From a virus: 25,722 bases of DNA. Positions 1,896-24,743 of this stretch are shown piece by piece (the stretch's first letter is position 1; the number at the start of each line of letters is the position of its first letter). The stretch spans positions 1-25,722 of the IMG/VR virus record IMGVR_UViG_3300037264_001066. One strand, 5' to 3'. Both the position numbers and the translations under genes were made by a program. The notes under the pieces are model-generated. The model worked only from the letters and a program-made list of their open reading frames with translations, made no database searches and was not told where the DNA came from.

Positions 1896-2591
1896 CTACG
1901 AGTTGCTCGTGACGATCGTCCGCTTCCAGATCCGTCCGGTCGAGGTAGTCGCCGTGACCGCCGGCGTGACCGTCCAGTCCCAGCGGGCGCGGATCTCGAT
2001 CGGCATTTTCGCGACGCCCTTCTTCTGGAGCACCCAATCCCCAGCCGGGACGATGAGCCCCGCCCAGACCTGGTAGTACCCCATGAACGACATGAACCGG
2101 AAGAACGGGTCGGAGCCGACAGGGAAGCTCTCGTTCGGGCAACGAAGAAGGACCTGGTAGTAGCGAGCGTTGTCATCGCCAGGCATTCCGCCGTACCCGA
2201 GCTGCTTGATATCGGGCGCGCCGCTCGTGTCCGCCGCGACGTTTGTCGCCGCGAGAACGCTCGCCCCTGACGGGTTCGTGATCGTCACGTCGGAGCCGAG
2301 CAGAAGAGCGACCATCTCGATCGGCGCCTCTTGGAGGACACACTTGATCGTCGTGCCCTCTTTCGTCTTGATATCTCCGGAGGCCTCGAATTCTTCCTCG
2401 CCCTCGATTGGCGCGTACTCTCGAATCGGAGTCATCGAGAACCCGCCGTCATCGATCTGGCCGGCGTAGTGGAGTCCAGTCGCTGCCGGGTCGACTCCTC
2501 CGGAAACGTACTCGGCGAGGTACATGCGCGCCGCCCCTCGGATTCGATTGACGTCCTTCGGGAGATTGGTCGGGAAAGTAACGAGAGCCAT
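1896..2591 (-). CDS. major tail tube protein
   Basis: Protein of 231 residues with a strong SD (AGGAGG) nine bases before ATG 2591. The N-terminal part has the alternating beta-strand pattern and acidic loop (IEGEEEFEASGDIKT) common in siphophage tube proteins, followed by a segment resembling 'valine/leucine-rich strand plus Gly/Asn loop' (VALLLGSDVTITNPSG). There are no membrane segments. It follows the tail terminator gene and precedes the chaperone candidate, matching the usual tail-gene order. It would polymerise into hexameric rings around the tape measure to form the tail shaft. Family membership is inferred from pattern, size and context. Confidence 0.75.
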   Translation of the reverse strand: MALVTFPTNLPKDVNRIRGAARMYLAEYVSGGVDPAATGLHYAGQIDDGGFSMTPIREYAPIEGEEEFEASGDIKTKEGTTIKCVLQEAPIEMVALLLGSDVTITNPSGASVLAATNVAADTSGAPDIKQLGYGGMPGDDNARYYQVLLRCPNESFPVGSDPFFRFMSFMGYYQVWAGLIVPAGDWVLQKKGVAKMPIEIRARWDWTVTPAVTATTSTGRIWKRTIVTSNS

Positions 2592-2603
2592 GGCGCGATC
2601 CTC

Positions 2604-3185
2604 CTATGCGGTCGGGTCGAAGAAAAGATGAGAGTAATGGAAGGTGCAGCTCACGGCACCCCTGCCGATTGTCGGGTCAGAGAATGGATCCGGGACGAAA
2701 TTTCCGATCGTGGCGGTTACGCTGCTCCCGCCGCCGAGATTGAAGTCAGAGAGGATGGCGACGATCGAATCCTGGAGAAGCTCTTCTAGCGCTTGCACGA
2801 TCGCGATAGATCGCTCCGGCTCGTCGCCGTTCGCTGCCACCGTGAGGTAAAGCGCGACGGACCAATTCGCCTCCGAGCTCCAGCCGTCCGCGTCATTGTC
2901 GCCCTCGAAGAGAGTCGGCTCCTCGATCACGAGGTTGATGCACGGAAGTTCCTCCGGCGGCATGTCTATGGCCGGGACGTGGGTGAGCAGGACTTTCCGA
3001 ACGGTCGAGAGGAACACGTGCCCGGCGCCGTTCTCCAGGCGACCGTCCGCCGAACCAACCTGGAAAGCCGGAAGCCCCTCCTGGATCCGAGAGAGCGCCT
3101 CGACAGCGCGGCGGAGGATCGCGAGCCGGCGCGTCGTCGGTCGGACGTTCGGAAAGACGTGCGGGTTGAGAGTCTCGGTGCTCAT
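2604..3185 (-). CDS. tail terminator / tail completion protein
   Basis: Protein of 193 residues. The ATG at 3185 overlaps the previous gene's TGA in ATGA, so the two are probably translationally coupled. An N-terminal helix with ILRRAVEALSRIQEGLP leads to beta strands (CINLVIEEPTLF, SVALYLTVAANGD) and a helix rich in Glu/Leu (AIVQALEELLQDSIVAIL), then a terminal strand pair (AVSCTFHYSHLFF). This alpha/beta arrangement is typical of proteins that cap the tail tube and join it to the head. Its place between the connector genes and the tail tube gene supports this role. No enzymatic motif is seen. Confidence 0.65.
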   Translation of the reverse strand: MSTETLNPHVFPNVRPTTRRLAILRRAVEALSRIQEGLPAFQVGSADGRLENGAGHVFLSTVRKVLLTHVPAIDMPPEELPCINLVIEEPTLFEGDNDADGWSSEANWSVALYLTVAANGDEPERSIAIVQALEELLQDSIVAILSDFNLGGGSSVTATIGNFVPDPFSDPTIGRGAVSCTFHYSHLFFDPTA

Positions 3186-3841
3186 GCCGCCTTCTTCTCA
3201 AGCGCCTGAGCGAACCGAAAGCGCGTTGCCGCCGTTCGACGCACCTGTGTCGATACCACTGCCGGCCCGAGGACCGGGATCGCCGGAACGACGACGCTTT
3301 TGTAGAGGGCGAAGAGGATCTTCGGCTTTGCCTTCCGCGATGCCATCTCGGCGAGCACGCCACGATAGTTCCCAGAGAGCTGCACGCGGCCTTGTGCGTC
3401 GCGCGTGGCGCCCTTTGGCGGCAGCCAGACGAGCCGACCGGCGTAGAGGCTCGGGCCGCCACGAGAGATGCCTGATGGCGTCTTGGCGCGCGGGAGTGGT
3501 ATCGCCAGAGCGAGAGTCTTCTGGCCCTTCCTCGGTCCCGAGAGAGCAGGCCCCTTGCCAGCCGAGACGACGCCGCCCTCTTCTCGGAGCCGCGAGCGCG
3601 GGTGCGTGCTGTAGACCGAGAGGCTCCACTTCCCGCCGCTCTTCGCCGGCTGCGTCATCTTCCAGCTTCGGCGCATGTCTGCGAGCCTGGCTCCCGGAAG
3701 CCCCTCCTGGATCTTTCCGAGGAGGATGTGCCCCTGGTCGAGCACCGCGAGCCGAGCGGCCGAGTCGAGCATCGCGAACCGACGGCGAAGCTCCGCGGCG
3801 GTAATCCCTTCGGTGTCCTTCCGAACGATCGCGAGCTTCAC
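3182..3841 (-). CDS. HK97 gp10-like / virion morphogenesis neck protein
   Basis: Protein of 219 residues from GTG 3841, which overlaps the preceding stop as GTGA. An ATG-started frame extends upstream but lies over the connector gene, so the GTG is preferred. The N-terminal half is helical (TAAELRRRFAMLDSAARLAVL); then basic strands with Ser/Trp (GGKWSLSVYSTHPRSRLREEGG) and a C-terminal basic tail follow. Small basic proteins with this layout lie between the head-tail connector and tail terminator in many siphophages, where they complete the neck or tail attachment. It is longer than the typical gp10 proteins (about 110-160 residues). Function is inferred from context and overall pattern. Confidence 0.6.
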   Translation of the reverse strand: MKLAIVRKDTEGITAAELRRRFAMLDSAARLAVLDQGHILLGKIQEGLPGARLADMRRSWKMTQPAKSGGKWSLSVYSTHPRSRLREEGGVVSAGKGPALSGPRKGQKTLALAIPLPRAKTPSGISRGGPSLYAGRLVWLPPKGATRDAQGRVQLSGNYRGVLAEMASRKAKPKILFALYKSVVVPAIPVLGPAVVSTQVRRTAATRFRFAQALEKKAA

Positions 3842-4455
3842 GCCGGCACCCCAGCGATTCCCGAGAAGTAATGCCGGCGGTCCTTGAGACCGTCGAGCGT
3901 GAGCCTCTCGGCCGGCGGGATCTCTCGGACGTAGATCACGGTCTGGCCGGGGAGAACCCGTTGCTGATCGCCCCAGCGCTCTCGCTCCTTGAACATGATC
4001 ATTGCGACCGCCTCGGCCAGGGAACGAATCGACTGCGGGACGTCCTCGTATGCGTAGCCAGCGGTCCACTCCACGAAGACGTTCTCCCAGTCGCAGCGCG
4101 GGAAGCGCGACGGGTAGATAACGCTGATCTCGTCGAAGTAGGCCGAGACCTGATTCGCTGCGAACTGCGTCGAAGTCCCAACCGGGATCGTCGACCCGTT
4201 GACCGAGAGCGACGCGATCGAGTTGACGGGCTGGTAGGGGAGATGGAGCCGCGACTTGCCGTGTCCCTTGAATCGGCGCCGGTAAGGGTTCGCGGGATCG
4301 GCGAGGACTCTGATCGCTGCCTCGCGCTCGATCCATTCGCATGCCTTCTCGGCGAGGAGTTCCTTGAGTGGTTCGCTGAGTCCGTCACCACGCGGATTCG
4401 TCGAGACAAGTCGCGCCGTGATGTCGGACGATGAGATCCAAGCGCGGCCGGCCAC
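3838..4455 (-). CDS. head-tail connector protein (gp6-like)
   Basis: Protein of 205 residues. The pattern LHLPYQPVNSIASLSVNG, then FVEWTAGYAYEDVPQSIRSL and a helical segment with AVAMIMFKERERWG, matches the gp6/gp15-type connector fold. In that family an alpha-helical bundle carries a loop of Pro-rich strands and a conserved 'Y-T-A-G-Y...V-P' like motif. The connector forms a ring on the portal and bridges to the tail. It follows the capsid genes and is coupled to the next gene by GTGA. An N-terminal extension of about 40 residues precedes the recognisable part. There are no signal peptides or membrane segments. Confidence 0.72.
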   Translation of the reverse strand: MAGRAWISSSDITARLVSTNPRGDGLSEPLKELLAEKACEWIEREAAIRVLADPANPYRRRFKGHGKSRLHLPYQPVNSIASLSVNGSTIPVGTSTQFAANQVSAYFDEISVIYPSRFPRCDWENVFVEWTAGYAYEDVPQSIRSLAEAVAMIMFKERERWGDQQRVLPGQTVIYVREIPPAERLTLDGLKDRRHYFSGIAGVPA

Positions 4456-4458
4456 GAC

Positions 4459-4737
4459 TCACCCCGAGACAGTGAAACCAGCGCGCCGGGCTTCGTCAGC
4501 TTCTTCGGCGAGGATCACACAGCAACCGTTTGCGTCCCGCTTGTACGAGCGCGATGTACTCCCGAACGTCACCGACTTCGCGCCTTCCGGGAACCTCGCG
4601 AGGAGCGTGGCCTCGGCAGAGACGACGAGGCGACGAGGGGAGACGACCGTGACTTCGGCCGCTTCTGGTTCTGGCTCGGCCGGGACCGGCTTCGCTTCCA
4701 CGACGACGGGGGCCGCTTTCTTCGAACCGAATGCCAT
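4459..4737 (-). CDS. small hypothetical phage protein downstream of capsid
   Basis: Protein of 92 residues starting at ATG 4737 with SD AGGAGAG. Residues 10-30 are Ala/Pro/Glu/Val-rich and probably disordered; the remainder ends in a compact segment (KRDANGCCVILAEEADEA, then RRAGF near the C-terminus) with a Cys-Cys pair. I recognise a recurring type of small protein found just after the capsid gene in siphophages, but not a named family. It is separated from the capsid gene by a 140-bp gap with two hairpins. The next gene starts three bases after this gene's stop, so the two are probably one transcription unit. A minor head or decoration role is possible but not shown. Confidence 0.65.
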   Translation of the reverse strand: MAFGSKKAAPVVVEAKPVPAEPEPEAAEVTVVSPRRLVVSAEATLLARFPEGAKSVTFGSTSRSYKRDANGCCVILAEEADEARRAGFTVSG

Positions 4738-4761
4738 CTGACCACTCTCCTGGTTTGCGAC

Positions 4762-4787
4762 TCGGGGGGCTCTCTCGCACCCCCCGA
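4762..4787 (-). terminator. GC hairpin between capsid and downstream gene
   Basis: Perfect 8-bp inverted repeat (TCGGGGGG and CCCCCCGA) with a 10-base loop. It lies 25 bases before the start of the next minus-strand gene, without a clear T tract after it. It may be an attenuator or RNA-processing/stability stem rather than a full terminator. Confidence 0.35.
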
Positions 4788-4845
4788 ACCGCGGCTGCCT
4801 GCTTGACCGTAACCTCAGGGACAAGAGGTTCGGCTCAAAGAGCAA

Positions 4846-4871
4846 GGCCGGGCGCGAGAGAACGCCCGGCC
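4846..4871 (-). terminator. candidate rho-independent terminator after capsid gene
   Basis: Perfect 9-bp GC stem (GGCCGGGCG and CGCCCGGCC) with an 8-base loop, beginning 9 bases after the capsid stop codon. On the minus strand it is followed by TTGCTCTTTG, which is T-rich but interrupted, so termination may be partial. Partial termination here would give more capsid mRNA than downstream tail mRNA. Confidence 0.5.
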
Positions 4872-4880
4872 GATGGAGGC

Positions 4881-6371
4881 CTACGCCTCCGAAACGTTCT
4901 TGAGAACAACTCCACCGCCACCGAAGTAGATTTTGAGAACTTCGTTGGCTCGGACCGAGAACGGCCACACTGGGCCACCGGGGACCGTGCTTCCCGGTGC
5001 GTCCGCCGCCGTCACGGAGTAGTCGATTTGGTAGTAATCCCGCGCGACGGCCATCTCCATTGCAGAGCCGACGTTCGAGTAGTCGTAGGGGTTCGTCATC
5101 CGGGGCCCGATGATCATGTTCTTCGGGAAGGTTCGATGGGAGACAATCTCCACATCCTCGCCCGTGAACGGATTCAGAACTGAGGCGATGCGCAGGCCGC
5201 CCTTCGCCTCCATGTTTCCGTCGTTCCCATTGAGGTTGATTCGCCACGCGGGTGCTGTGGCCCCGGCGATCAGCGAGATGATCTTTCGGTGAAGTCTGGG
5301 TTCCATCATGAACACGGTGGGCCCAACGCCGGTAGCGAGGTACGCCGCCTGCATCGCATCGGTGAGCTGAGTCACCCCGCCGAGTCCGTCGGACGTGAGC
5401 GAGCCGTTGTTCAGAGTGGAGTACTGGACTTGGAGGTCGGAGTCCTCGACGTACTGCGTCAGAACGCCGTCGAAGTCGAGAGCGTTCTGCGAACCGTCGA
5501 CCGTGTTCTCGACCGGCGTTCCGATCTGAGAAACCGAGGTGAGGACGAAACGGTTGACGGTGACGGTGCCGGAGTACTTGTACGTACCGGCGCCACCTTG
5601 CTGGACCCACATGTTGTACGCGACCGCGCCCTTCACGTCCGCCCAGCTGTAGGTGATCATGTCGTTCAACGCTGCAACTTCACCCACCGAGGTCGCGGAC
5701 GGGAGAGCCTCTCCTGCCGTGTTCGTGTTCGGGTTGTAGCCTGCGATCTGGCTCTGCCGATACCCCTGGAGCGTGAGAGCCGAGACCTTGAGGCGATACG
5801 TGTCCGCGGCGAGACCGCCACCGGCTGCGACGACTCCGGTTGGAGCTGCGGGCGGGGTGAGGATCGCGACCGTCCGGCCGCCGATGATGATGTCCTCCTC
5901 CATGACCATGAGGGTCTGGAGCAGTTGGAGAACGGCGAGGGCGCGGACGTCCTGGTAGTCCTGCCCGTAGATCTGCGCGTCGAAGGTCGTGTAGTCGAGC
6001 GCCGAGATCTGCTTCAGTCTCGCGCTCTTGTCCTTCTCGGTCTTGCGATTCGCCGCTGGTACGCCGGTCTGTGCAGCCGAGCCCCAGTTCCCGCTCGTGT
6101 TAATCGCGGTGATGACTTTCCACTCGAGGAGCTGCGAGACGACTTTCGGCGTCACTCGCGGAATCATCCGGCGAAGGATCGCGGTGAGGGCGTAGAGAAG
6201 TTTCGCCGGCGCATCGAGAGAGCGCGCCTGGAGTCCCAGTTCGCTGGTGTAACCTGGACTGTTAGACAAGTCCTTTCGGACCGTCGTGTCGAGCGCCGAG
6301 GCGATTGCCATCTTGTAAGCCTCGAGCGCCTGACTAACGCCGGGCACCGATGGGCTGATGTTCGGGTTCAC
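4881..6371 (-). CDS. major capsid protein with Ig/FN3-like insertion
   Basis: Protein of 496 residues from GTG 6371 with SD AAGGAG. N-terminal helical region (residues 1-60) then a core typical of HK97-fold capsids: VVSQLLEWKVITAIN, a long internal stretch, a helix GVGPTVFMMEPRLHRKIISL, and a C-terminal GGPVWPFSVRANEVLKIYFG. Residues about 173-285 break the pattern: Pro-rich entry (LTPPAAPTGVVAAGG), TYRLKVSALTLQGYRQ, a central TYSWADVKGAVAYNMWVQQG and a final strand ending VLTSV, which resembles a beta-sandwich domain of the fibronectin type III/Ig type inserted in the capsid. It follows the prohead protease, the usual order. Length fits a capsid with an added domain of about 110 residues. 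Confidence 0.8.
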   Translation of the reverse strand: MNPNISPSVPGVSQALEAYKMAIASALDTTVRKDLSNSPGYTSELGLQARSLDAPAKLLYALTAILRRMIPRVTPKVVSQLLEWKVITAINTSGNWGSAAQTGVPAANRKTEKDKSARLKQISALDYTTFDAQIYGQDYQDVRALAVLQLLQTLMVMEEDIIIGGRTVAILTPPAAPTGVVAAGGGLAADTYRLKVSALTLQGYRQSQIAGYNPNTNTAGEALPSATSVGEVAALNDMITYSWADVKGAVAYNMWVQQGGAGTYKYSGTVTVNRFVLTSVSQIGTPVENTVDGSQNALDFDGVLTQYVEDSDLQVQYSTLNNGSLTSDGLGGVTQLTDAMQAAYLATGVGPTVFMMEPRLHRKIISLIAGATAPAWRINLNGNDGNMEAKGGLRIASVLNPFTGEDVEIVSHRTFPKNMIIGPRMTNPYDYSNVGSAMEMAVARDYYQIDYSVTAADAPGSTVPGGPVWPFSVRANEVLKIYFGGGGVVLKNVSEA

Positions 6372-6387
6372 GTTTCGTTCTCCTTCT

Positions 6388-6403
6388 CGACGCCTTCGCG
6401 TCG
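6388..6403 (-). promoter_or_regulatory. hairpin just upstream of the capsid Shine-Dalgarno
   Basis: Perfect 6-bp stem with a 4-base loop (CGACGC, GAAG, GCGTCG on the minus strand). It lies in the 36-base gap between the protease stop and the capsid GTG, immediately before the AAGGAG. It could protect or cleave the mRNA, or tune capsid translation. Confidence 0.35.
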
Positions 6404-6407
6404 ATTC

Positions 6408-7949
6408 TTACCTCGCGGCTCCCGATTTGTAGAGCGAGAGAGCGAGCTGATTCCGGATCGACTGCTCGGTGACTTCGATTCCCTGGCTCCGGAGATTCCG
6501 GAACGCGGAGTCGACGATCACGTCAACGTCTCCCGGTCCTTCCGTGGCTCCGCCGAGGTTGATGCTCTTCTCGACGGATCTGCCGGTCACGGGCGTCCTG
6601 TCGCTGATGGCCGGTTGGCGCTCGACCACTCCGATCCGTTTCGCAAGGTCCGCGAGTTCGACACGCAAACTCGCCCCCAAGCCCTCGACGGCCTTGAGCA
6701 CATCGCTCGATCGGTCCACCGCTGCAACGTCACCGCCCTTTGCGGCCTTCTCAATCTTTCCGTCAACGGCCGGCTTCGCCTCGTTCTGCTCGGCGACTTC
6801 TCCACCGCCCGCATCGATTTTCTTCTTCGTGTCGAGTTCCTCGCCTTTGTCCTTGGGAGCCTCTTCGGCGTTCGGCTTTTTCTCTTCCGCTCCCTCGGCC
6901 TCGGCCGCTTCGTTCTTCTTCTCTTCTTCGGCTTCTCCGAAATCGTTCGCAAACTTCTCGACGGCTTCGGCGTATGCGCGGAGCTGCGTGGCCATTTCTC
7001 CCATGGCCTTCTTCTCTTTCTTGTCGAGCTTGTAGGAGACCGCACCCTTGATCACGTCGAGAGATCGAGCTGCACCGTCGGACGCGGTGACCGTCGCTGA
7101 CGCCGCCTCCATCGCCGCGCTGTAGAGTTTCGATTGCCTAATTTCCTCGATGCTCCCGAGGACTTCCGCGAGAACTCGAACGCAGTACGCGCCATGCTCC
7201 GAGACCTCGTCGACGGCCATCTTCGCGGCTTCGGCGAGGTGCATCTTCGCGGCGTCGAGATGAGCCACGATTCCCAACTCATCCGCGGCCGGGTTAGCCG
7301 GCTCGGCCGGAGGAGGCTCGGCGGCAGGGGTCGCCGTCGGCGCTTCGTCCTGCTTCGTGACGGTCGCTTTCGAGTCGAGATCCTTCGTCATGGTGACTTT
7401 CTCCCCGTCGCTCTTCGCGACCGTGATCGTGGTATTCGGTACATCGGGGCTGTCGACGAGCGACAGCTCGACCATTCGCCATTGCTTGAGAACGCTGATC
7501 GTGTCGCCCTTCATCGTCTCGGGGATGCCGTACTTGGCCACGAGCGCATCGTCGACTCGCGCTGCTGATCGGCCTCCTCGAGTCGCCGCCTTGCCGCCGA
7601 CGGAGTAGCCGGTCAACGTTCCATCGAGAACCTTCTTGACCGTGTTCGGGGCCCCTGAGCTGACCCTTCCACGTACGAAGATCCTTCGCCCGTCGTCCTC
7701 GAAGTCGACCGAAAGCTCGCGGCCAACCGCAAGGTTCGGATCGTGTTGCTCTCGAATGTTCCCGGGCCATCCCTCGAAGGCTTCTTTCGCGCCCTCGTAG
7801 TCGATGACTTCTCCGGATCGGCCGAGCTGCTCCGTCATCGCGTAGCCCTCGACGATGAGCGAGCCGTCGGGCTGCGGCTCTGTCTTCGTGAACGGCACGA
7901 AGAAGGCGACGGGGTCGGTTGGTCCTGGGAGATGGTGAGCTTGGGACAA
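6408..7949 (-). CDS. prohead serine protease (XkdF-like) with long C-terminal region
   Basis: The protein is 513 residues from TTG 7949, chosen because GGAGAG lies 8 bases upstream; the frame stays open to a TTG at 8102. Near residues 15-40 FVPFTKTEPQPDGSLIVEGYA starts the domain. IREQHDPN carries the probable catalytic His (about residue 69) and GYSVGGKA the probable Ser (about 116), with WRMVELSLVDSP after it. This fits the phage prohead protease family (Pfam XkdF-like type). The C-terminal half (about 190-480) is Ala/Glu/Lys-rich and coiled-coil-like, and may act as the scaffold/delta domain cut off in head maturation. It lies just before the capsid gene, as usual. Start uncertain. Confidence 0.75.
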   Translation of the reverse strand: MSQAHHLPGPTDPVAFFVPFTKTEPQPDGSLIVEGYAMTEQLGRSGEVIDYEGAKEAFEGWPGNIREQHDPNLAVGRELSVDFEDDGRRIFVRGRVSSGAPNTVKKVLDGTLTGYSVGGKAATRGGRSAARVDDALVAKYGIPETMKGDTISVLKQWRMVELSLVDSPDVPNTTITVAKSDGEKVTMTKDLDSKATVTKQDEAPTATPAAEPPPAEPANPAADELGIVAHLDAAKMHLAEAAKMAVDEVSEHGAYCVRVLAEVLGSIEEIRQSKLYSAAMEAASATVTASDGAARSLDVIKGAVSYKLDKKEKKAMGEMATQLRAYAEAVEKFANDFGEAEEEKKNEAAEAEGAEEKKPNAEEAPKDKGEELDTKKKIDAGGGEVAEQNEAKPAVDGKIEKAAKGGDVAAVDRSSDVLKAVEGLGASLRVELADLAKRIGVVERQPAISDRTPVTGRSVEKSINLGGATEGPGDVDVIVDSAFRNLRSQGIEVTEQSIRNQLALSLYKSGAAR

Positions 7950-8060
7950 CTCGGTGACTCTCCGTTCAGCATCGCGCTGCGCGAAAGCCGACGGCCGAAC
8001 GGCCGCGGACGCTCCCGATATGCGCTCTCGGGTTCGTCCGAACTCTTGTCCCTGCGGAAG

Positions 8061-8090
8061 AGTATCCGCCCTCACTCCGACGGGCGTCAA
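8061..8090 (-). promoter_or_regulatory. candidate sigma70-type promoter for the protease/capsid unit
   Basis: TTGACG (-35, five of six consensus bases) lies at 8090-8085 and GATACT (-10, four of six) at 8066-8061, with an 18-base spacer. The predicted start near 8053 would give a leader of about 100 bases before TTG 7949. A palindrome (8095-8122) abuts its -35. Confidence 0.4.
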
Positions 8091-8094
8091 GTCA

Positions 8095-8122
8095 GGACAC
8101 AAGTTACCAGGAACTTTTGTCC
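8095..8122. repeat. imperfect palindrome with GGACACAAGTT arms
   Basis: GGACACAAGTT and AACTTTTGTCC are inverted with one mismatch around a 6-base loop. The core AAGTTACCAGGAACTT (8101-8116) recurs with two changes at 8249-8264. It abuts the candidate promoter, so it could be an operator or a REP-like element. Confidence 0.5.
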
Positions 8123-8194
8123 CCCTGGGCTGTCAGGAGCGTTCCGGTGGTTTGGAAGGCAAACGCTAGGCGAATTTCTGCCAAATAGGGATCC

Positions 8195-8220
8195 GGGGAC
8201 AAACTCGCGGATTTGTCCCC
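8195..8220. repeat. palindrome GGGGACAAA / TTTGTCCCC
   Basis: Perfect 9-bp inverted repeat with an 8-base loop. GGGGACAAA also occurs at 8116-8124 on the minus strand, so the element is repeated. Confidence 0.5.
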
Positions 8221-8247
8221 TATGCAGGTCCAGCGAAAATCTGGAAG

Positions 8248-8265
8248 AAAGTTACTTGGAACTTT
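8248..8265. repeat. palindrome AAAGTT / AACTTT
   Basis: Perfect 6-bp inverted repeat around ACTTGG. Its 16-bp core differs by only two bases from that at 8101-8116, so it is a second copy of that element. Confidence 0.45.
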
Positions 8266-8290
8266 CGGAGGGAGTTTCTCGCAGGAGCGA

Positions 8291-8322
8291 CCCGACAAAT
8301 CTATACGGGTATATTTGTCGGG
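8291..8322. repeat. 32-bp palindrome with GACAAAT arms
   Basis: CCCGACAAAT pairs with ATTTGTCGGG, and after a 2-base bulge ATAC pairs with GTAT, making a 14-bp stem around GG. It carries the GACAAA motif seen in the other palindromes here. It could form a hairpin or cruciform, but has no T tract of terminator type. Confidence 0.5.
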
Positions 8323-8354
8323 TAATTTTCTCGCATGCGACGAAACGACCGAGG

Positions 8355-8390
8355 CCAGGTGCAGACCAGGTGCAATGCACCTACCTGCAC
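8355..8390. repeat. CAGGTGCA operator-like cluster
   Basis: CCAGGTGCA occurs twice in direct orientation with starts 11 bp apart (8355 and 8366), one helical turn. The second copy pairs with TGCACCT to make a perfect palindrome at 8368-8382, followed by CCTGCAC. The spacing and symmetry suggest binding of a dimeric regulator. It begins 10 bases beyond the head-morphogenesis gene's stop codon. Confidence 0.45.
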
Positions 8391-8399
8391 ATGCTCTAG

Positions 8400-8990
8400 C
8401 TACGCCGCCTCGGCGAATTCCAGCATGCTCGGCTCGTCAGGGTGCGGCTCCTTGACGAAGCGGCGATATCGGCCGATCTCCGAGGGGACGATCACGTATC
8501 CGGTGCGCTGGCAGTTCGGGTGAGCGATCGGATGATTCCGCCACGTTTCGAGCGTCCAGATGGCCCCGTTCGCAAACTTGCACCACTCGTCCGATGTTCC
8601 GTCGATGATCTTGACCAGCTCGTAGCCGTCATCCTCGGCGCGATCGATGAACCCGACGTTCGAGGCAAGCGCCTCTTCCGTCCTTGCGATCACGAGGGCG
8701 CGGTCGCGGCCGAACTCTTTGAAGAGCGCGGCCTGGAGCTCGGCCACGTCGAGGTACTTTCCCTCTTCCGCCATGCGCCGAATCTCAGCGACGCGCGCGA
8801 TCGAGTCTCCCTTGAGCTGCTCGGAGAGTCGGCGGAGGCGCCGCTCGACGTACTCGATCCCGCGCTCGAAGGCTCGCTCTCGGTTCCCGACGGCTCGCTC
8901 GGCGCCTGGGAATGAGGCTCCCTGATAGGCACCGATGAATGCCCGGATGAGCGCGTCGAGAAGCTCAGTCTGCGCGGCCGTGTACGCCAT
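8400..8990 (-). CDS. phage head morphogenesis protein (SPP1 gp7 / Mu F-like)
   Basis: Protein of 196 residues. Residues about 95-165 carry the family pattern: ALVIARTEEALASNVG, a Gly-Tyr helix end (DDGYELVKIIDG), SDEWCKFANG and the Cys-Pro ending HPIAHPNCQRTG. These resemble the SPP1 gp7/Mu F-type domain found in minor capsid proteins just after the portal. This group helps head assembly or DNA ejection. It is shorter than most family members (often over 250 residues), so the N-terminal portion may be reduced. It lies 12 bases after the portal gene, as is standard. The Cys-rich C-terminus may bind metal. Confidence 0.72.
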   Translation of the reverse strand: MAYTAAQTELLDALIRAFIGAYQGASFPGAERAVGNRERAFERGIEYVERRLRRLSEQLKGDSIARVAEIRRMAEEGKYLDVAELQAALFKEFGRDRALVIARTEEALASNVGFIDRAEDDGYELVKIIDGTSDEWCKFANGAIWTLETWRNHPIAHPNCQRTGYVIVPSEIGRYRRFVKEPHPDEPSMLEFAEAA

Positions 8991-9002
8991 CGCGGGCGAG
9001 CC

Positions 9003-10955
9003 TCACTTCTTCGGCAGCGTTGACGGTGGCGCATCAGCCGCGAGAATCGCGGGGGCGATCTCGGCGAGGTACGCGGTTACCGCCGATTGGATTCGTCGCT
9101 GATTCCGAAGCTGGCCTGGTCGCTTCTTCAACCGATCCTCAGCCGCCTTGAAAACAGCGTCGGGATCGGCACCGTCGACGAGAGAAGCACGAACGTCTGC
9201 GGCGATCTCGTCGGGGATGGCGGCGTTTACGAACGAACGAGCCGGCCCGTTCTTCGCGACGACTCGGCGCCAGGTCGCGAGTTCTGAGCGCGCGGCTTTG
9301 TAGAGTTCGCCATCGGCTGGCTTCTCGATCTCGGCTTTCTTCTCTTCGATCGCAACTTCTTCTTCGGCGTCGGACTGGATCGCCAACGGCGGAGGGGCCG
9401 GGAGACCAAGACGCGAAGCGATGGCGCCTCGAATGTCGTTGATCATCCCCTCGTCGCCGAGAGCCTTCATTCGCTCAAGGGCCAGCGTCAGCTCGTTGAA
9501 CGAGATGCCCGCTTCTACGACGGCGGCCGCTGGTTCCTCGTCCGATCCCTCTCCGTTCATCGGGAGAGCCGGCACGCCGGAGACGATCGGGCCGACAGGA
9601 AGCGCGCGGATCTCGTCATCCGGAGCCATGCCGAGAATCTGCTCGGACACGTACGAGCGCCTGAGAATCCCCTCGTTCATGAAGATCTGAAGAACGCCAG
9701 CGCGCTCAGGGGATACGTCGGTCTCGTCGATCACCCACGCGAACTTGAGCAGATCGTCACCGGCGCGCTGCTCCTCCAGCTCGGTCACGATCGAGGAGAT
9801 CGTCGCCTTGAGCGGGCGAGTGCCGAGGTCCGTGTTCATCCCCTCGGCGACTTCCGCGGTTGCGCGGTTCTGCATCGTGACGAACGGCATCGGGTTGACC
9901 GAGAACATGGCGCAGATTACCCGCGCGATCCACTCGTCTTGCTCGCGAGACCAGACTGGCTCCTTGATCTCCTTCGGCGATGCGTTCGGTGGGAGCGGCA
10001 CGAGGCGCCAGCGCGCGGCGTCGTCGCCCGTGAGCTGTTCGTTCAGGAGGTCGAACCACATCCTCACGCTGTCCGGAGCCATGTCCGGGACTTGGACGAA
10101 GACACGCGGGATCGAACCGTCGGTGTAGTACGAGAGATTGAAGCACCAGCGGCGAATGCCCATTACGATGTGAAGCAAGCACATCTCGACGAGCGAGCGG
10201 CCGTAAGGGGAATCAACCTGCGGATTCGTTGGCCGGTAGAAAAGCTCGTTCGCATCGTAGCTGCCGCGGATGATTCCGTGGATAACCTGCTCATATGCCG
10301 GGTTCGGCGCTTGCGGCGTGTGCCCGAAGTTGTCGATCAGGAGCTTGATCGTCTTGCCGTCGACCTGGCAGAAGGAGTGAACCCGACCGCCCTTGTCGAA
10401 CTGCGGATAGACAGTCATCGCGTCGGTCACGAAGATCTCGAAGAGGAGTCCGAAGAGCCATTGGTCCCAGCGGAGATTGTCGAGGCGGTTCGGTTTCTCC
10501 CAGAACTTCCTAGCCTCGTTGATCCGCGCGAGAACGAATGGATCGCGCGCCACTAGCGGGTCTCGCGGCTGGAACGTGAACTCCATCGAGGCCATTTCAT
10601 CGGAGCGCGCTCGGATCGCGTACTGGAGAACGTCGTTCTGTCGCGTTACCGCGGCGAGGATGCTGAATGCGTTCTGATCTCCGAACCCAGCGCGGGGCGT
10701 TCGCTGGAGGTTGACCGATGAGGGGAAGTCGAACGCGCGCGGGACGACGCCTTCGTAGAACGGTGGGAACGGAATGCCGGGAGCCGGGAAGTCGCGAGTG
10801 TTGAACGCCGGCCCGTTGACCGACGGAGCTTCGAGACGAGAGACCGCCGGCCGGCCGATCATGTCCATCGGCTGCTGCGTCGTGACGAACTGCGACGGGT
10901 TCGCGCCGAAGAGATCGAGCGGCGCGGCGATTGTCTTCATCACTTCGCGGATCAT
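9003..10955 (-). CDS. portal protein with long C-terminal extension
   Basis: Protein of 650 residues. ATG 10955 overlaps the terminase stop as ATGA, so this start is preferred over an open frame extending upstream. Core portal features: ILAAVTRQNDVLQYAIRARS, a Trp/Leu-rich region RLDNLRWDQWLFGLLFEIFV, VDSPYGRSLVEMCLLHIVMG and ARVICAMFSVNPMPFV with a following Asn-rich turn. The portal forms the dodecameric DNA channel at one head vertex and docks the terminase. After about residue 470 the protein has an extension rich in Glu/Lys/Ala and ending in basic helices (LKKRPGQLRNQRRIQSAV), beyond the usual portal length. Order terminase, portal, head morphogenesis is the standard packaging module. 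Confidence 0.82.
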   Translation of the reverse strand: MIREVMKTIAAPLDLFGANPSQFVTTQQPMDMIGRPAVSRLEAPSVNGPAFNTRDFPAPGIPFPPFYEGVVPRAFDFPSSVNLQRTPRAGFGDQNAFSILAAVTRQNDVLQYAIRARSDEMASMEFTFQPRDPLVARDPFVLARINEARKFWEKPNRLDNLRWDQWLFGLLFEIFVTDAMTVYPQFDKGGRVHSFCQVDGKTIKLLIDNFGHTPQAPNPAYEQVIHGIIRGSYDANELFYRPTNPQVDSPYGRSLVEMCLLHIVMGIRRWCFNLSYYTDGSIPRVFVQVPDMAPDSVRMWFDLLNEQLTGDDAARWRLVPLPPNASPKEIKEPVWSREQDEWIARVICAMFSVNPMPFVTMQNRATAEVAEGMNTDLGTRPLKATISSIVTELEEQRAGDDLLKFAWVIDETDVSPERAGVLQIFMNEGILRRSYVSEQILGMAPDDEIRALPVGPIVSGVPALPMNGEGSDEEPAAAVVEAGISFNELTLALERMKALGDEGMINDIRGAIASRLGLPAPPPLAIQSDAEEEVAIEEKKAEIEKPADGELYKAARSELATWRRVVAKNGPARSFVNAAIPDEIAADVRASLVDGADPDAVFKAAEDRLKKRPGQLRNQRRIQSAVTAYLAEIAPAILAADAPPSTLPKK

Positions 10956-12400
10956 GCGGCGATCCTCCCGAGTCTCTCTCTCTCTTCTCGTTCGAGGCGC
11001 TTCTGCTTGAGGCTCTCGAGGAACCCGATGTAGCCGTGCCCACCGGTGTAGATCGGCGGGGCTGATGCGATCATCAGCGAGTCGAACCGATCGGGCGATG
11101 AGAAACCATCCGGCGTCTTGATCAGCTCGATTTTCCCGCCGGTGATCGGTTTGAATCGGACTTGGAGGATCTGACTTCGGAGGATCGGATCTCTCGGGAG
11201 GGAGATGGCGCGCTCGTTGATGCGCTTGACGAGATGCCACGCCGCCTCGGTCGAGCGGTTCTTGAAGCGCTCCGGCTGGTTCGCTGCCGCGTTCGCGACG
11301 AACTCTTCGACCTTCCCGTCCCAGCCCCAGCTCTTGATTTCGCTCACCGGGCCGGCGCCGTAGCCGATCGCGTCGACTGCGATCGTTCGAGCTCCAGCTG
11401 TCCGCGCGCGCTCGACGGCGATGGAGGATATCTGCACCGTGTCCCGAATTCTCATGCAGACTTGGCCGATGAGATCGTCGCCGATCATGGTCGAGATGAC
11501 GCTCTCGTCTCCGTCCGTCGAGAACGCCACGTCAACGCCGATCCGCGGTTCGCCCTTGAGACTCGGCGCTCTCTCCATGCACGCATCGACCGCTGCTGGG
11601 CTCGCGCTCCAGGCCCCTCCGTCGTCGTCGAGGTATTGAGCCATCCCGCGAGCGAGGAACTCCGGTGCGTCAATTCCGCCGCAAGCGAAGGCCAGCTCAT
11701 CACGTGCGTGCTCTGCTCCTGGGATACCGGCGCGGATCATCTCCTCGATGGTCCCGACGTAGCGGAGAACGTCCGTTCGCGGCGACGTGTCGAGTTCGTA
11801 GAACGGGCCGGCCTTCTGCCACGGCGTCGTTATCCACGCGTCGATCGTTTCGGGTGCGTCGAGTGATCCCTGCGTTGCGCGAATGACCTGCGCCGGAACA
11901 GCCTTCGCCTCGTCGACGAATCGCCCCGCAGCGAACGCAGAGTGAGAGCCCTCGAGGTTCTCGAAGTTGTCGGACGCGACGCCGTAGCCAAACCAGTCCG
12001 CCTCGATCTCCAGCCGACACGAGTCGAGAACGCGCCCATCGGGGAGGAGAAGCGAGCGGAGCCACGCCGCCTTGATCTCGCGCCAGAGCAGGTTCGAGAC
12101 CTGCCGCCACGTCGGCGCCGTCGTGATCGCGCGAGAGCCGGGGCGCGTGAACATGTACCAGAGAAAGAGCCACGCCATGAGGCGCGTCTTGCCCCAGCCG
12201 TGGCACGTCCGCATGAGGAGCTTGAGATGCTTCCGGCCTGCTTCGAGTTCGAGCCCGATGTCGACGAGGACTCGCTCCTGTTCGTCGCGTGGTTCGTCAC
12301 CGATGACGTGCCGAACGAAAAGCAGCGGCTCGTGGCGGAGGAGAATCAACCCATCCGCGATGCTATTCCTCTCGACTCTCATGGATTCTCGTTGACTCAC
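10952..12400 (-). CDS. terL: large terminase subunit
   Basis: Protein of 482 residues from GTG 12400; an ATG at 12382 is an alternative. The ATPase domain has a Walker A-like motif RTCHGWGKT (residues 64-72), the following ITTAPTWRQV segment, an EGSHS motif (150-154) and a Walker B-like FVDEA (161-165). The nuclease domain begins with IGVDVAFSTDGDES (Asp at about 290), has further strands with Asp, and ends at SPDRFDSLMIA (435-445), which carries two more Asp residues. These are the expected metal-binding acidic residues of the RNase H-like domain. The enzyme pumps DNA into the prohead and cuts concatemers. ATGA coupling to the portal gene supports the assignment. Confidence 0.88.
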   Translation of the reverse strand: MSQRESMRVERNSIADGLILLRHEPLLFVRHVIGDEPRDEQERVLVDIGLELEAGRKHLKLLMRTCHGWGKTRLMAWLFLWYMFTRPGSRAITTAPTWRQVSNLLWREIKAAWLRSLLLPDGRVLDSCRLEIEADWFGYGVASDNFENLEGSHSAFAAGRFVDEAKAVPAQVIRATQGSLDAPETIDAWITTPWQKAGPFYELDTSPRTDVLRYVGTIEEMIRAGIPGAEHARDELAFACGGIDAPEFLARGMAQYLDDDGGAWSASPAAVDACMERAPSLKGEPRIGVDVAFSTDGDESVISTMIGDDLIGQVCMRIRDTVQISSIAVERARTAGARTIAVDAIGYGAGPVSEIKSWGWDGKVEEFVANAAANQPERFKNRSTEAAWHLVKRINERAISLPRDPILRSQILQVRFKPITGGKIELIKTPDGFSSPDRFDSLMIASAPPIYTGGHGYIGFLESLKQKRLEREERERLGRIAA

Positions 12401-17820: not shown

Positions 17821-18786
17821 TTAATTTTTCGGAGGGAGTGTCCAACCGAGATCACGGGCGGCTTGTCGCTCTGCCTCGGTGTATCCGTCCTCGCCGATGC
17901 CGTGGAGTTGCCGCGACTTCGAGAGCGGTTTATTCCGGTCATCGTATTTCCCCTCCTCGATTTTCGTCAGCGTTCCGGTGCGGATGAGAAACTCAAAATC
18001 TGCGACCCAGTGCCGGGCGTTGTCGCCAAGGCAAAACGATGAGCCGGCGATACGCCGGATAGCCCGCTCCCAGACCCCGATGTCCGGAACCTCGTGGAGT
18101 CGGGCCTTGGCCTTGACGAGTCTCGGGCCGCGAAGCGGGAGGCGAACGCGAGGGAGTGGAGCGCCGGCACGGTTCCACATCTCGGCGAGCTCGTCGGGCC
18201 CTGGTCCCCTCGCCGGCTTGGAGTGAGGGTCTCCCGGGCCGGAGGCTCCGGGAGACGAGGGCGAGGGCTCGGACTCGCCCGGCCAATGTGACTCCCTCTC
18301 CTCTCCTTGAGCGGGAGCGGGAGCGGGAGCGGGAGCGGGAGCGGGAGCGGGAGGTGCTACGTTTGCTAGCTGATTGCTACCCGATGCCATGCGATTCCTC
18401 GCCTTTGCTAGCCCACCGAGTCTTCCGGCCTCCCGGCGTTGGCTGCGAATTGTGATCCCGTCGATTCGCCTCTTCTCCTCGTTACTAGATCGACGTTTCA
18501 CATAATTTGGGGCGTGGTCGAAGTAGTCGTGAATCTCCCACTCTCCGGGCTCTTCGGCCTCGTCGATCCATCTACCAAAACGTAGCTCCTCGAACAGTTT
18601 GCAAGACTCTCCGGGCCATTCTGCGCTCGCCTCGACCGCCTCCGGCGACCCGATCAGGGGGTCGCCGTTCTCGTTTGCTACGTCCCAAAGGGTCTCGAGG
18701 AGGCCTCGAACGTACGGCTTCGGGAGCTTCAGCCGGAGGACGAGGAGCTTGAATTTCGGGCAGCGGTCGAGATTCGGTCGCGCCAT
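17821..18786 (-). CDS. replisome organizer-like phage replication protein
   Basis: Protein of 321 residues. The N-terminal domain has MARPNLDRCPKFKLLVLRLK and GLLETLWDVANENGDPLIG, then IHDYFDHAPNYVKRR and a basic helix with EKRRIDGI. Positions about 145-160 form a Pro-Ala repeat linker ((PA)7) and a Ser/Pro/Gly stretch follows. The C-terminal domain (from about residue 200) has VWERAIRRIAGSSFCLGDN, ARHWVADFEFLI and a TKIEEGKYDD tail. The combination of N-terminal DNA-binding-type domain, flexible linker and C-terminal W-x-x-x-F...EGKYD-type domain is common in phage replication-initiation/replisome-organizer proteins, which bring the host helicase to the origin. Start at ATG 18786 has a weak SD. 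Confidence 0.7.
   Translation of the reverse strand: MARPNLDRCPKFKLLVLRLKLPKPYVRGLLETLWDVANENGDPLIGSPEAVEASAEWPGESCKLFEELRFGRWIDEAEEPGEWEIHDYFDHAPNYVKRRSSNEEKRRIDGITIRSQRREAGRLGGLAKARNRMASGSNQLANVAPPAPAPAPAPAPAPAQGEERESHWPGESEPSPSSPGASGPGDPHSKPARGPGPDELAEMWNRAGAPLPRVRLPLRGPRLVKAKARLHEVPDIGVWERAIRRIAGSSFCLGDNARHWVADFEFLIRTGTLTKIEEGKYDDRNKPLSKSRQLHGIGEDGYTEAERQAARDLGWTLPPKN
18309..18350 (-). repeat. GAGCGG hexanucleotide repeat inside the replication gene
   Basis: Seven perfect tandem copies of a 6-base unit (read GAGCGG on the plus strand). In the gene's minus-strand frame it encodes a Pro-Ala repeat. Six-base units change the linker length without shifting frame, so copy number could vary by slipped-strand replication. 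Confidence 0.75.
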
Positions 18787-18796
18787 GAAGGTTGCG

Positions 18797-19033
18797 TCAG
18801 ACAGCCGACTGACCGGAATCCTGGATTCGCTCCTGGGTTACAGACGGTCTCGGCGCCAGGATCTTCCTGGCCCGCACGAGAAGCACAGTCCGGGCCCACG
18901 CCGACACGGCCGCCCAGTCCTCTTGGTCGGCGGCGCGTCGCAATTCCCGGAGCTCCGATTCGCGCAGGGGGATGTCGAGTCCGCAGCTTCTTCGTTTGTA
19001 CTTCGGCTGGGGTTTTGGTCCTCGCTTGGCCAT
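18797..19033 (-). CDS. putative ribbon-helix-helix-type protein
   Basis: 78-residue protein from ATG 19033, with AGAGGTG just upstream; a GTG two codons further upstream would be a poor start. The N-terminus is basic (MAKRGPKPQPKYKRR). The following SCGLDIPLRESELRELRRAAD and VSAWARTVLLVRARKI have a strand, helix and second helix as in small plasmid/phage ribbon-helix-helix proteins. It is the first gene of the minus block and lies across the divergent intergenic region from the recombination operon, so it could control either direction. Family placement is only from pattern. Confidence 0.5.
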   Translation of the reverse strand: MAKRGPKPQPKYKRRSCGLDIPLRESELRELRRAADQEDWAAVSAWARTVLLVRARKILAPRPSVTQERIQDSGQSAV

Positions 19034-19039
19034 GGTCAC

Positions 19040-24190: not shown

Positions 24191-24484
24191 ATGACAGCCA
24201 AGAAAACGAAACTCCCCTACGTCGTCGTCCGCACCTACTCCGCAGGAGTCCACGTCGGCGAACTCGTCTCGCGAAAAGGAAAAGAAGCGATGCTCTTGAA
24301 CGCCAGGCGGATCTGGTCGTGGCGCGGCGCGAACTCGCTCTCGGAAATCGCAACGGCTGGCGTTGACGACGGCTCGCGCGTCAGCGTTCCGGTTCCGTCG
24401 ATCGAGCTTACTGAGGCGATCGAGATCATTCAGACCACGGAGGCCGGAGAGGCCAATCTCCGCGCGGCAAAATGGACGTCGTGA
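24191..24484 (+). CDS. DUF6948-like phage protein
   Basis: Protein of 97 residues with SD GAAAGGA. Features: PYVVVRTYSAGVHVGELVS, then LLNARRIWSWRGANSLSEIA and SIELTEAIEIIQTTEAGEA with a final AAKWTS. The pattern V-R-T-Y-S-A-G-V, N-A-R-R-I-W-x-W-x-G-A and I-E-I-I fits DUF6948, a family of small phage proteins of unknown role. It is overlapped at its 3' end by the Gly-rich repeat ORF below; I recall DUF6948-type genes often preceding Gly-rich ORFs in phages. Confidence 0.72.
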   Translation: MTAKKTKLPYVVVRTYSAGVHVGELVSRKGKEAMLLNARRIWSWRGANSLSEIATAGVDDGSRVSVPVPSIELTEAIEIIQTTEAGEANLRAAKWTS

Positions 24485-24654
24485 AGTCGGGCTGGGGCTC
24501 GGGCTCGGGCGCTGGCGATGGCGCTGGCGATGGCTGGGGCGCTGGCGCTGGCGCTGGCGCTGGCGCTGGCGCTGGCGCTGGCGATGGCTCGGGCGAGGGC
24601 GAGGGCGCTGGCTATGGCGCTGCTGGCTATGGCGCTGGCGCTGGCTCGGGCTAA
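24472..24654 (+). CDS. Gly-rich repeat ORF overlapping DUF6948-like gene
   Basis: 60-residue ORF starting at ATG 24472, 13 bases inside the 3' end of the DUF6948-like gene in another frame. The product is almost entirely Gly with Ala, Ser, Asp and a few Tyr/Trp/Glu (MDVVKSGWGSGSGAGDG start). The DNA includes six perfect copies of GGCGCT. It may be a genuine Gly-rich peptide or a low-complexity frame made by repeats. The phage pairing of DUF6948-like genes with Gly-rich frames is recalled, not checked. Confidence 0.4.
   Translation: MDVVKSGWGSGSGAGDGAGDGWGAGAGAGAGAGAGAGDGSGEGEGAGYGAAGYGAGAGSG
24538..24573 (+). repeat. (GGCGCT)6 tandem repeat
   Basis: Six perfect copies of a 6-base unit, within a longer imperfect Gly-codon-rich region (about 24490-24654). 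In the Gly-rich ORF frame it encodes Gly-Ala units. The copy number can vary without shifting frame. Confidence 0.75.
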
Positions 24655-24743
24655 TTTCAACCGCGGTTCGTCCCTCCCGGAACCAACCTAACACGGGGCG
24701 GGCGGAAGTTTGAGAGAGGAGAGAAACCGGGTTCTAACTGCTC

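Follow-up and report, generated by a model that had tools for sequence, protein, structure and literature searches.

Palindromes in a non-coding gap between packaging and capsid genes of a viral contig: a possible phage-specific control or spacer region

Gene order and the non-coding gap

The analyzed stretch (the window) is an entire IMG/VR virus record, a contig of 25,722 bp whose late genes all lie on the minus strand. These encode the terminase large subunit (10952-12400), the portal protein (9003-11240), a MuF-like head morphogenesis protein (8400-8990; phrog_2468, E 5.6e-5), a prohead protease/scaffold (6408 to ~7950; phrog_9427, E 2.4e-17), and a major-capsid-like protein (MCP; 4881-6371; phrog_13692). 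The last of these is assigned as the capsid protein by homology to proteins that carry a major capsid or major head annotation in the Arthrobacter phages Mufasa8 and Sonali and in the Alicyclobacillus phage MMB025. The strongest GC-corrected hairpin of the contig (4841-4871; GGCCGGGCGCGAGAGAACGCCCGGCC) immediately follows the major capsid gene on the minus strand. The right part of the contig carries early genes on the plus strand, among them those for DUF932, Erf, a PD-(D/E)XK nuclease, and a DNA methylase. A gene for a DnaD/O-like replication initiator is found at 17821-18786; within it, at 18310-18353, a GGGAGC tandem repeat encodes an Ala-Pro run and recalls the origin repeats within phage O genes. 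In addition, a small early gene ends in a long, repetitive, GC-rich stretch (24480-24690) that is among the strongest-folding windows of the contig.

The MuF-like gene upstream and the protease/scaffold gene downstream are separated by a non-coding gap at ~7950-8399. In alignments, homologues of the protease begin at about residue 52-69 of the long ORF, which places the true start of the gene at ~7900-7950 and hence the true gap length at ~450 bp. When the genes of the contig itself serve as the training set, the codon log-odds are low or negative across ~7950-8399 in all six frames, compared with ~+0.28 to +0.30 in the flanking genes; this rules out a coding gene within the gap and bears out an earlier note on this DNA, made from the sequence alone, which had described the setting as gene-free. 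The GC content of the gap is 0.53-0.58, against ~0.63 in the flanks.

Palindromes in the gap and their excess over chance

The earlier note had placed four palindromes at 8095-8322. All four are present, and in excess of chance, but the span proves too narrow, as the gap also holds one palindrome on either side that had been missed. Thus, at least six palindromes are packed into the ~450 bases. The leftmost, H (8006-8040; CGGACGCTCCCGATATGCGCTCTCGGGTTCGTCCG), has a hairpin score of 9.3, which ranks within the top 11 for the contig, and folds as minus-strand RNA. It is followed by E1 (8095-8122; GGACACAAGTTACCAGGAACTTTTGTCC), with the structure GGACA-C-AAGTT/ACCAGG/AACTT-T-TGTCC, and by E2 (8195-8220; GGGGACAAACTCGCGGATTTGTCCCC), in which the arms GGGGACAAA and TTTGTCCCC enclose the loop CTCGCGGA. 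E3 (8248-8265) has the core AAGTTACTTGGAACTT at 8249-8264, in common with E1, while in E4 (8290-8323; ACCCGACAAATCTATACGGGTATATTTGTCGGGT) the arms ACCCGACAAATCTA and TATATTTGTCGGGT are separated by TACGGG. The rightmost palindrome, E5 (8359-8390), reads GTGCAG-ACC-AGGTGC/AAT/GCACCT-AC-CTGCAC and starts, on the minus strand, 9 nt past the stop codon of the MuF-like gene. It is the only such inverted pair in the window, none of 100 shuffles yielded two matches, and its RNA fold has an energy of -21 kcal/mol. The cluster contains a further inverted pair, 8116-8124/8195-8203.

Some motifs are shared between the elements. The hexamer GACAAA, previously assigned to the arms of three of them, is present on each side of E2 and E4; E1 has it on one side only, with GACACA on the other. 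The AAGTTAC..GGAACTT core, noted as near-identical in two elements, is exact in E1 and E3, where the two central bases alone differ. Within 7943-8219 lie five of the window's 11 copies of GGGACA.

Several measures place this arrangement above chance. The summed hairpin score for 8090-8330 is 29.0, while the maximum over 2000 dinucleotide shuffles is 23.1. Structure prediction, a check proposed along with the original description, yielded z = -3.6 for folding as single-stranded DNA and -3.2 for folding as RNA. When the 50-nt windows of the contig are ranked by structure with GC correction, the gap, at 1.75% of the contig's length, contributes three of the top 14. Two sites in the window have the pattern GACAAAn4-20TTTGTC, both of them in this cluster (E2 and E4), and the pattern was seen in none of 100 shuffles. 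Similarly, a search of the whole window for the dyad AAGTTnCnnGnAACTT with at most two mismatches retrieves the E1 and E3 sites only, both without a mismatch, against 0.32 expected. Weaker dyads (at least 9 of 15 pairs) are only mildly enriched in the gap, 12 compared with ~8 expected from the whole window, which means that the excess depends on the strong hairpins and the shared motifs.

A diverged duplication with a conserved core

Aligned with itself, the gap matches best at a diverged direct repeat of 58 nt on the plus strand, with one copy at 8089-8146, containing E1, and the other at 8237-8294, containing E3. At the shift of 148 bp, the ungapped self-alignment scores 16.2, the maximum in 300 shuffles being 15.4, and the copies are identical at 36 of 58 positions. 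The identity is distributed unevenly: the 16-bp dyad core is retained at 14 of 16 positions, compared with 22 of 42 in the flanks, although this contrast comes from two copies only. The outer arms of E1, GGACA/TGTCC, have become GGAAG/CGGAG in E3 with no compensating changes. A core that is kept while the outer arms decay uncompensated fits a double-stranded site for a protein better than it fits a conserved hairpin.

The dyad centers at 8108.5, 8207.5, 8256.5, and 8306.5 are separated by steps of 99, 49, and 50 bp. The autocorrelation is highest at lag 148, and lags 100 and 50 are among the top five; since the regularity of ~50 bp was spotted post hoc, we give it little weight. The distance of 148 bp between E1 and E3 corresponds to ~14 helical turns. 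The core is shared by E1 and E3 only; the other palindromes (E2, E4, E5, and H) differ, and no single site is repeated in all six.

Possible folding of the gap in RNA

It is possible, though in our view somewhat doubtful, that the palindromes work in RNA, with E5, E4, E3, E2, E1, and H forming a structured spacer of the late mRNA that serves in 3'-end protection, in RNase processing, or in setting the proportions of packaging and capsid proteins. The minus-strand RNA of 8030-8340 folds with z = -3.15, and both the concentration of highly structured 50-nt windows in the gap and the position of E5 immediately past the MuF stop codon agree with such a role. The palindromes, however, fold on both strands and as single-stranded DNA as well, so that folding by itself is no pointer to RNA, and the loss of the outer stem of E1 in its duplicate E3 also speaks against a role as a hairpin. 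No intrinsic terminator (a GC-rich stem followed by a U-tract) was found in 7800-8600, and no Rfam model matched the gap at the gathering score, the matches all being below the threshold.

Comparison with dispersed host repeats

The earlier note likened the palindromes to REP elements. REPs are present as many dispersed intergenic copies, usually with GTAG as a tag flanking the stem, and they are associated with RAYT transposases (PMC3116915, PMC3733652, PMC8266576). The tag is defined as GTAG/CGTC (PMC3733652, PMC8266576), and REP-like families without a tag exist as well (PMC3733652). The likeness found no support in the contig or the sequence collections searched, whether in copies, tag, RAYT, or consensus. 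In particular, neither dyad recurs elsewhere in the 25.7-kb contig, which was the search suggested for recognizing such elements. None of the palindromes has GTAG or CGTC directly 5' of its stem. On the minus strand, GTAG does occur twice in the gap or at its edge, at 8381-8384, inside E5, and at 8400-8403, overlapping the MuF stop codon 9 nt before E5, and a CGTC ends ~6 nt ahead of E1. The contig encodes no Y1/RAYT transposase (PF01797); as it is a fragment, and such a gene would sit in the host, this applies to the phage part only. Nor are the palindromes copies of one consensus, as REPs are, only E1 and E3 sharing a core.

Searches of larger collections gave a similar picture. The E1-type pattern with flexible spacing had no match in 2.9 million viral contigs, and with flanks it had one match in ~85,000 species genomes. 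This match, in a Caldilineales MAG, is a lone hairpin without a second copy in the same genome, and we take it as chance. The E2-type pattern GGGGACAAAn4-18TTTGTCCCC was absent from all 201 Chloroflexota genomes searched, a result with little bearing on the true host, as the phylum was chosen via the chance match. The E4-type palindrome is found in six unrelated viral contigs. The sequence AAGTTACYWGGAACTT alone was found in at least 119 stretches of viral contigs, but their flanks are unrelated and the matches are apparently due to chance or coding.

REPIN-like repeats do exist in the late operon of a distant relative. A phage or prophage related to our contig by its capsid protein (L140, IMGVR_UViG_3300005261_000056, 2051-10566; similarly L142) contains six near-identical units of ~105 bp and a diverged seventh, distributed over several gaps in both orientations, each unit comprising two palindromes (CCCTCCCCCCTGGCGGGGGAGGG ... 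CCCCCTCCCGTCAAGGGAGGGGG). No RAYT gene was found in the L140 record. L140 illustrates a phage capsid operon invaded by REPIN-like elements; the window looks different.

We consider it unlikely, therefore, that the gap is a degenerate cluster of the REP or MITE type that entered the phage from a host and is now decaying, and host-derived repeats are the disfavored explanation. An origin in the host would account for the lower GC content of the gap, for its length, which exceeds that in most relatives, and for its internal diverged duplication, and the invasion of capsid operons of distant relatives, as in L140, provides a precedent. Against it stand the lack of other copies, stem tags, and a RAYT gene in the contig, the single match of the E1 form in an unrelated genome with none in viruses, and the mutual dissimilarity of the elements. 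If the host does carry these repeats, the window would exemplify host REPs that reside within a phage capsid operon, and L140 hints that such cases occur.

Replication origins, relatives, and drift

The E2-type pattern is present in 21 viral contigs, many of the matches being isolated hairpins or clusters linked to RepA. Several of the densest clusters are at the 3' end of AAA_25 (RepA-like) genes, and PF13481 was detected in all four tested. Dense clusters of GGGGACA/TGTCCCC are seen in unrelated viral contigs at L216:3868-4000, L220:8197-8425, and L225:1990-2170, and, in L228 and L214, near the E2-type match. The AAA_25-linked clusters may represent a common type of replication-origin iteron in other phages; our search of the literature on GGGGACA in phages found nothing relevant. 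By analogy, the cluster in the window could be an iteron-like origin, as the E2 form GGGGACAAA..TTTGTCCCC matches the clusters in L214/L228, L216, L220, and L225, each of which adjoins an AAA_25 gene. We regard this as highly improbable. The cluster in the window lies between structural genes, MuF and protease, rather than beside an initiator gene, and the contig has an initiator of a different type, DnaD/O-like, with a tandem repeat of its own; hence the analogy is given little weight. Moreover, the array is sparse, with five GGGACA in 280 bp compared with the 16 found in L220 within 300 bp of the match.

A blastn search with the gap against phages and plasmids had no match, and single-protein searches with MuF, the protease, and MCP retrieved no close relatives. 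The MCP alignment comprises 80 distant relatives with 28-32% identity, too distant for covariation analysis or footprinting. As the gap is mostly short in relatives, any function would be limited to this phage or those closely related to it. A quite unlikely explanation is drift: the gap would be what is left, free of genes, of an insertion or a gene that was lost, and its palindromes would have arisen or survived with no function. The lack of conservation in relatives and the heterogeneity of the dyads agree with drift, but it does not account for hairpins and repeated cores that are well above those in shuffled sequences.

A proposed control region upstream of the protease and capsid genes

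Overall, the gap resembles a control or spacer region of a fairly ordinary kind, specific to the phage. Our best guess is that it serves as an intercistronic region controlling the protease/capsid block. More specifically, the reading that we tentatively prefer is that the palindromes belong to a non-coding control region before the protease/scaffold and MCP genes and work at the DNA level, as operators, although we would not put it at even chances, and the evidence for DNA operators and for RNA hairpins is nearly balanced. The E1 and E3 dyads, AAGTTAC(CA/TT)GGAACTT, would serve a dimeric regulator as operators, and the GACAAA..TTTGTC dyads of E2 and E4 may be sites for the same regulator or a second one. 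A weak promoter-like sequence just past E1 would then fire into the protease gene. Protein binding, promoter activity, and control of the capsid genes are all deduced here from the arrangement of the DNA.

The candidate promoter is a sigma-70-like match, TTGACG-18-GATACT, on the minus strand at 8061-8090, which adjoins E1 on its downstream side and reads into the protease gene. It matches nine of 12 consensus bases, and the mean number of such matches per shuffle of the 800-bp region is 0.1; it is a consensus match only and, being weak, may be due to chance. Beside this match, an operator function is suggested by the location of the gap between two late genes of the same strand, by the excess of dyads, and by the preservation of the 16-bp core of E1 and E3 despite the loss of the outer arms, the two elements amounting to a dyad that is repeated in non-coding DNA with its core conserved, as in operator arrays. 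On the other hand, the region is not conserved, most of ~50 distant relatives having short gaps here, the difference in conservation between core and flanks is small in a sample of two copies, and the six palindromes do not represent one site. No DNA-binding regulator was recognized among the window proteins scanned, the contig being incomplete; a small basic protein of 80 aa (18797-19039) matched no family. Operators of a phage regulator had been named as an alternative in the earlier note as well; the dyad cores are compatible with that proposal and make candidate operators.

A bolder version of the operator reading, which we find improbable, would make the ~450-bp module between packaging and capsid genes, with its palindromes ~50 bp apart, a phage-encoded switch for the capsid genes, in which a dedicated regulator loops the DNA between E1 and E3 and thereby governs when, or how much, capsid protein is made. 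If the gap is a control region, the capsid genes of this lineage would be separable from the upstream packaging genes, a feature rarely mapped in uncultured phages.

Comparison with known systems

The palindromes resemble REPs and REPINs moved by RAYT (TnpA-REP) transposases (PMC3116915, PMC8266576) in that they are short, imperfect, clustered, and intergenic, and include an inverted pair. They differ in having no copies elsewhere in the contig, no stem tag, no RAYT gene, and no common form, the host genome being outside this comparison. Like those of L140, they occupy a gap among the portal, protease, and capsid genes of phages related by MCP, but where L140 repeats a near-identical unit six times over several gaps, the window has unlike elements in one. 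The AAA_25-linked GGGGACA clusters share with the gap the GGGGACAAA..TTTGTCCCC palindromes, yet they form much denser arrays in a replication context, while the context here is that of capsid genes. Operators of the lambda/434 type and the stoperators of mycobacteriophages are short dyads with slight variation, repeated in a gene-free stretch. The gap likewise contains short repeated dyads with small variation in gene-free DNA; unlike these systems, its cluster is inside a capsid operon, with no repressor gene adjoining it or recognized in the fragment.
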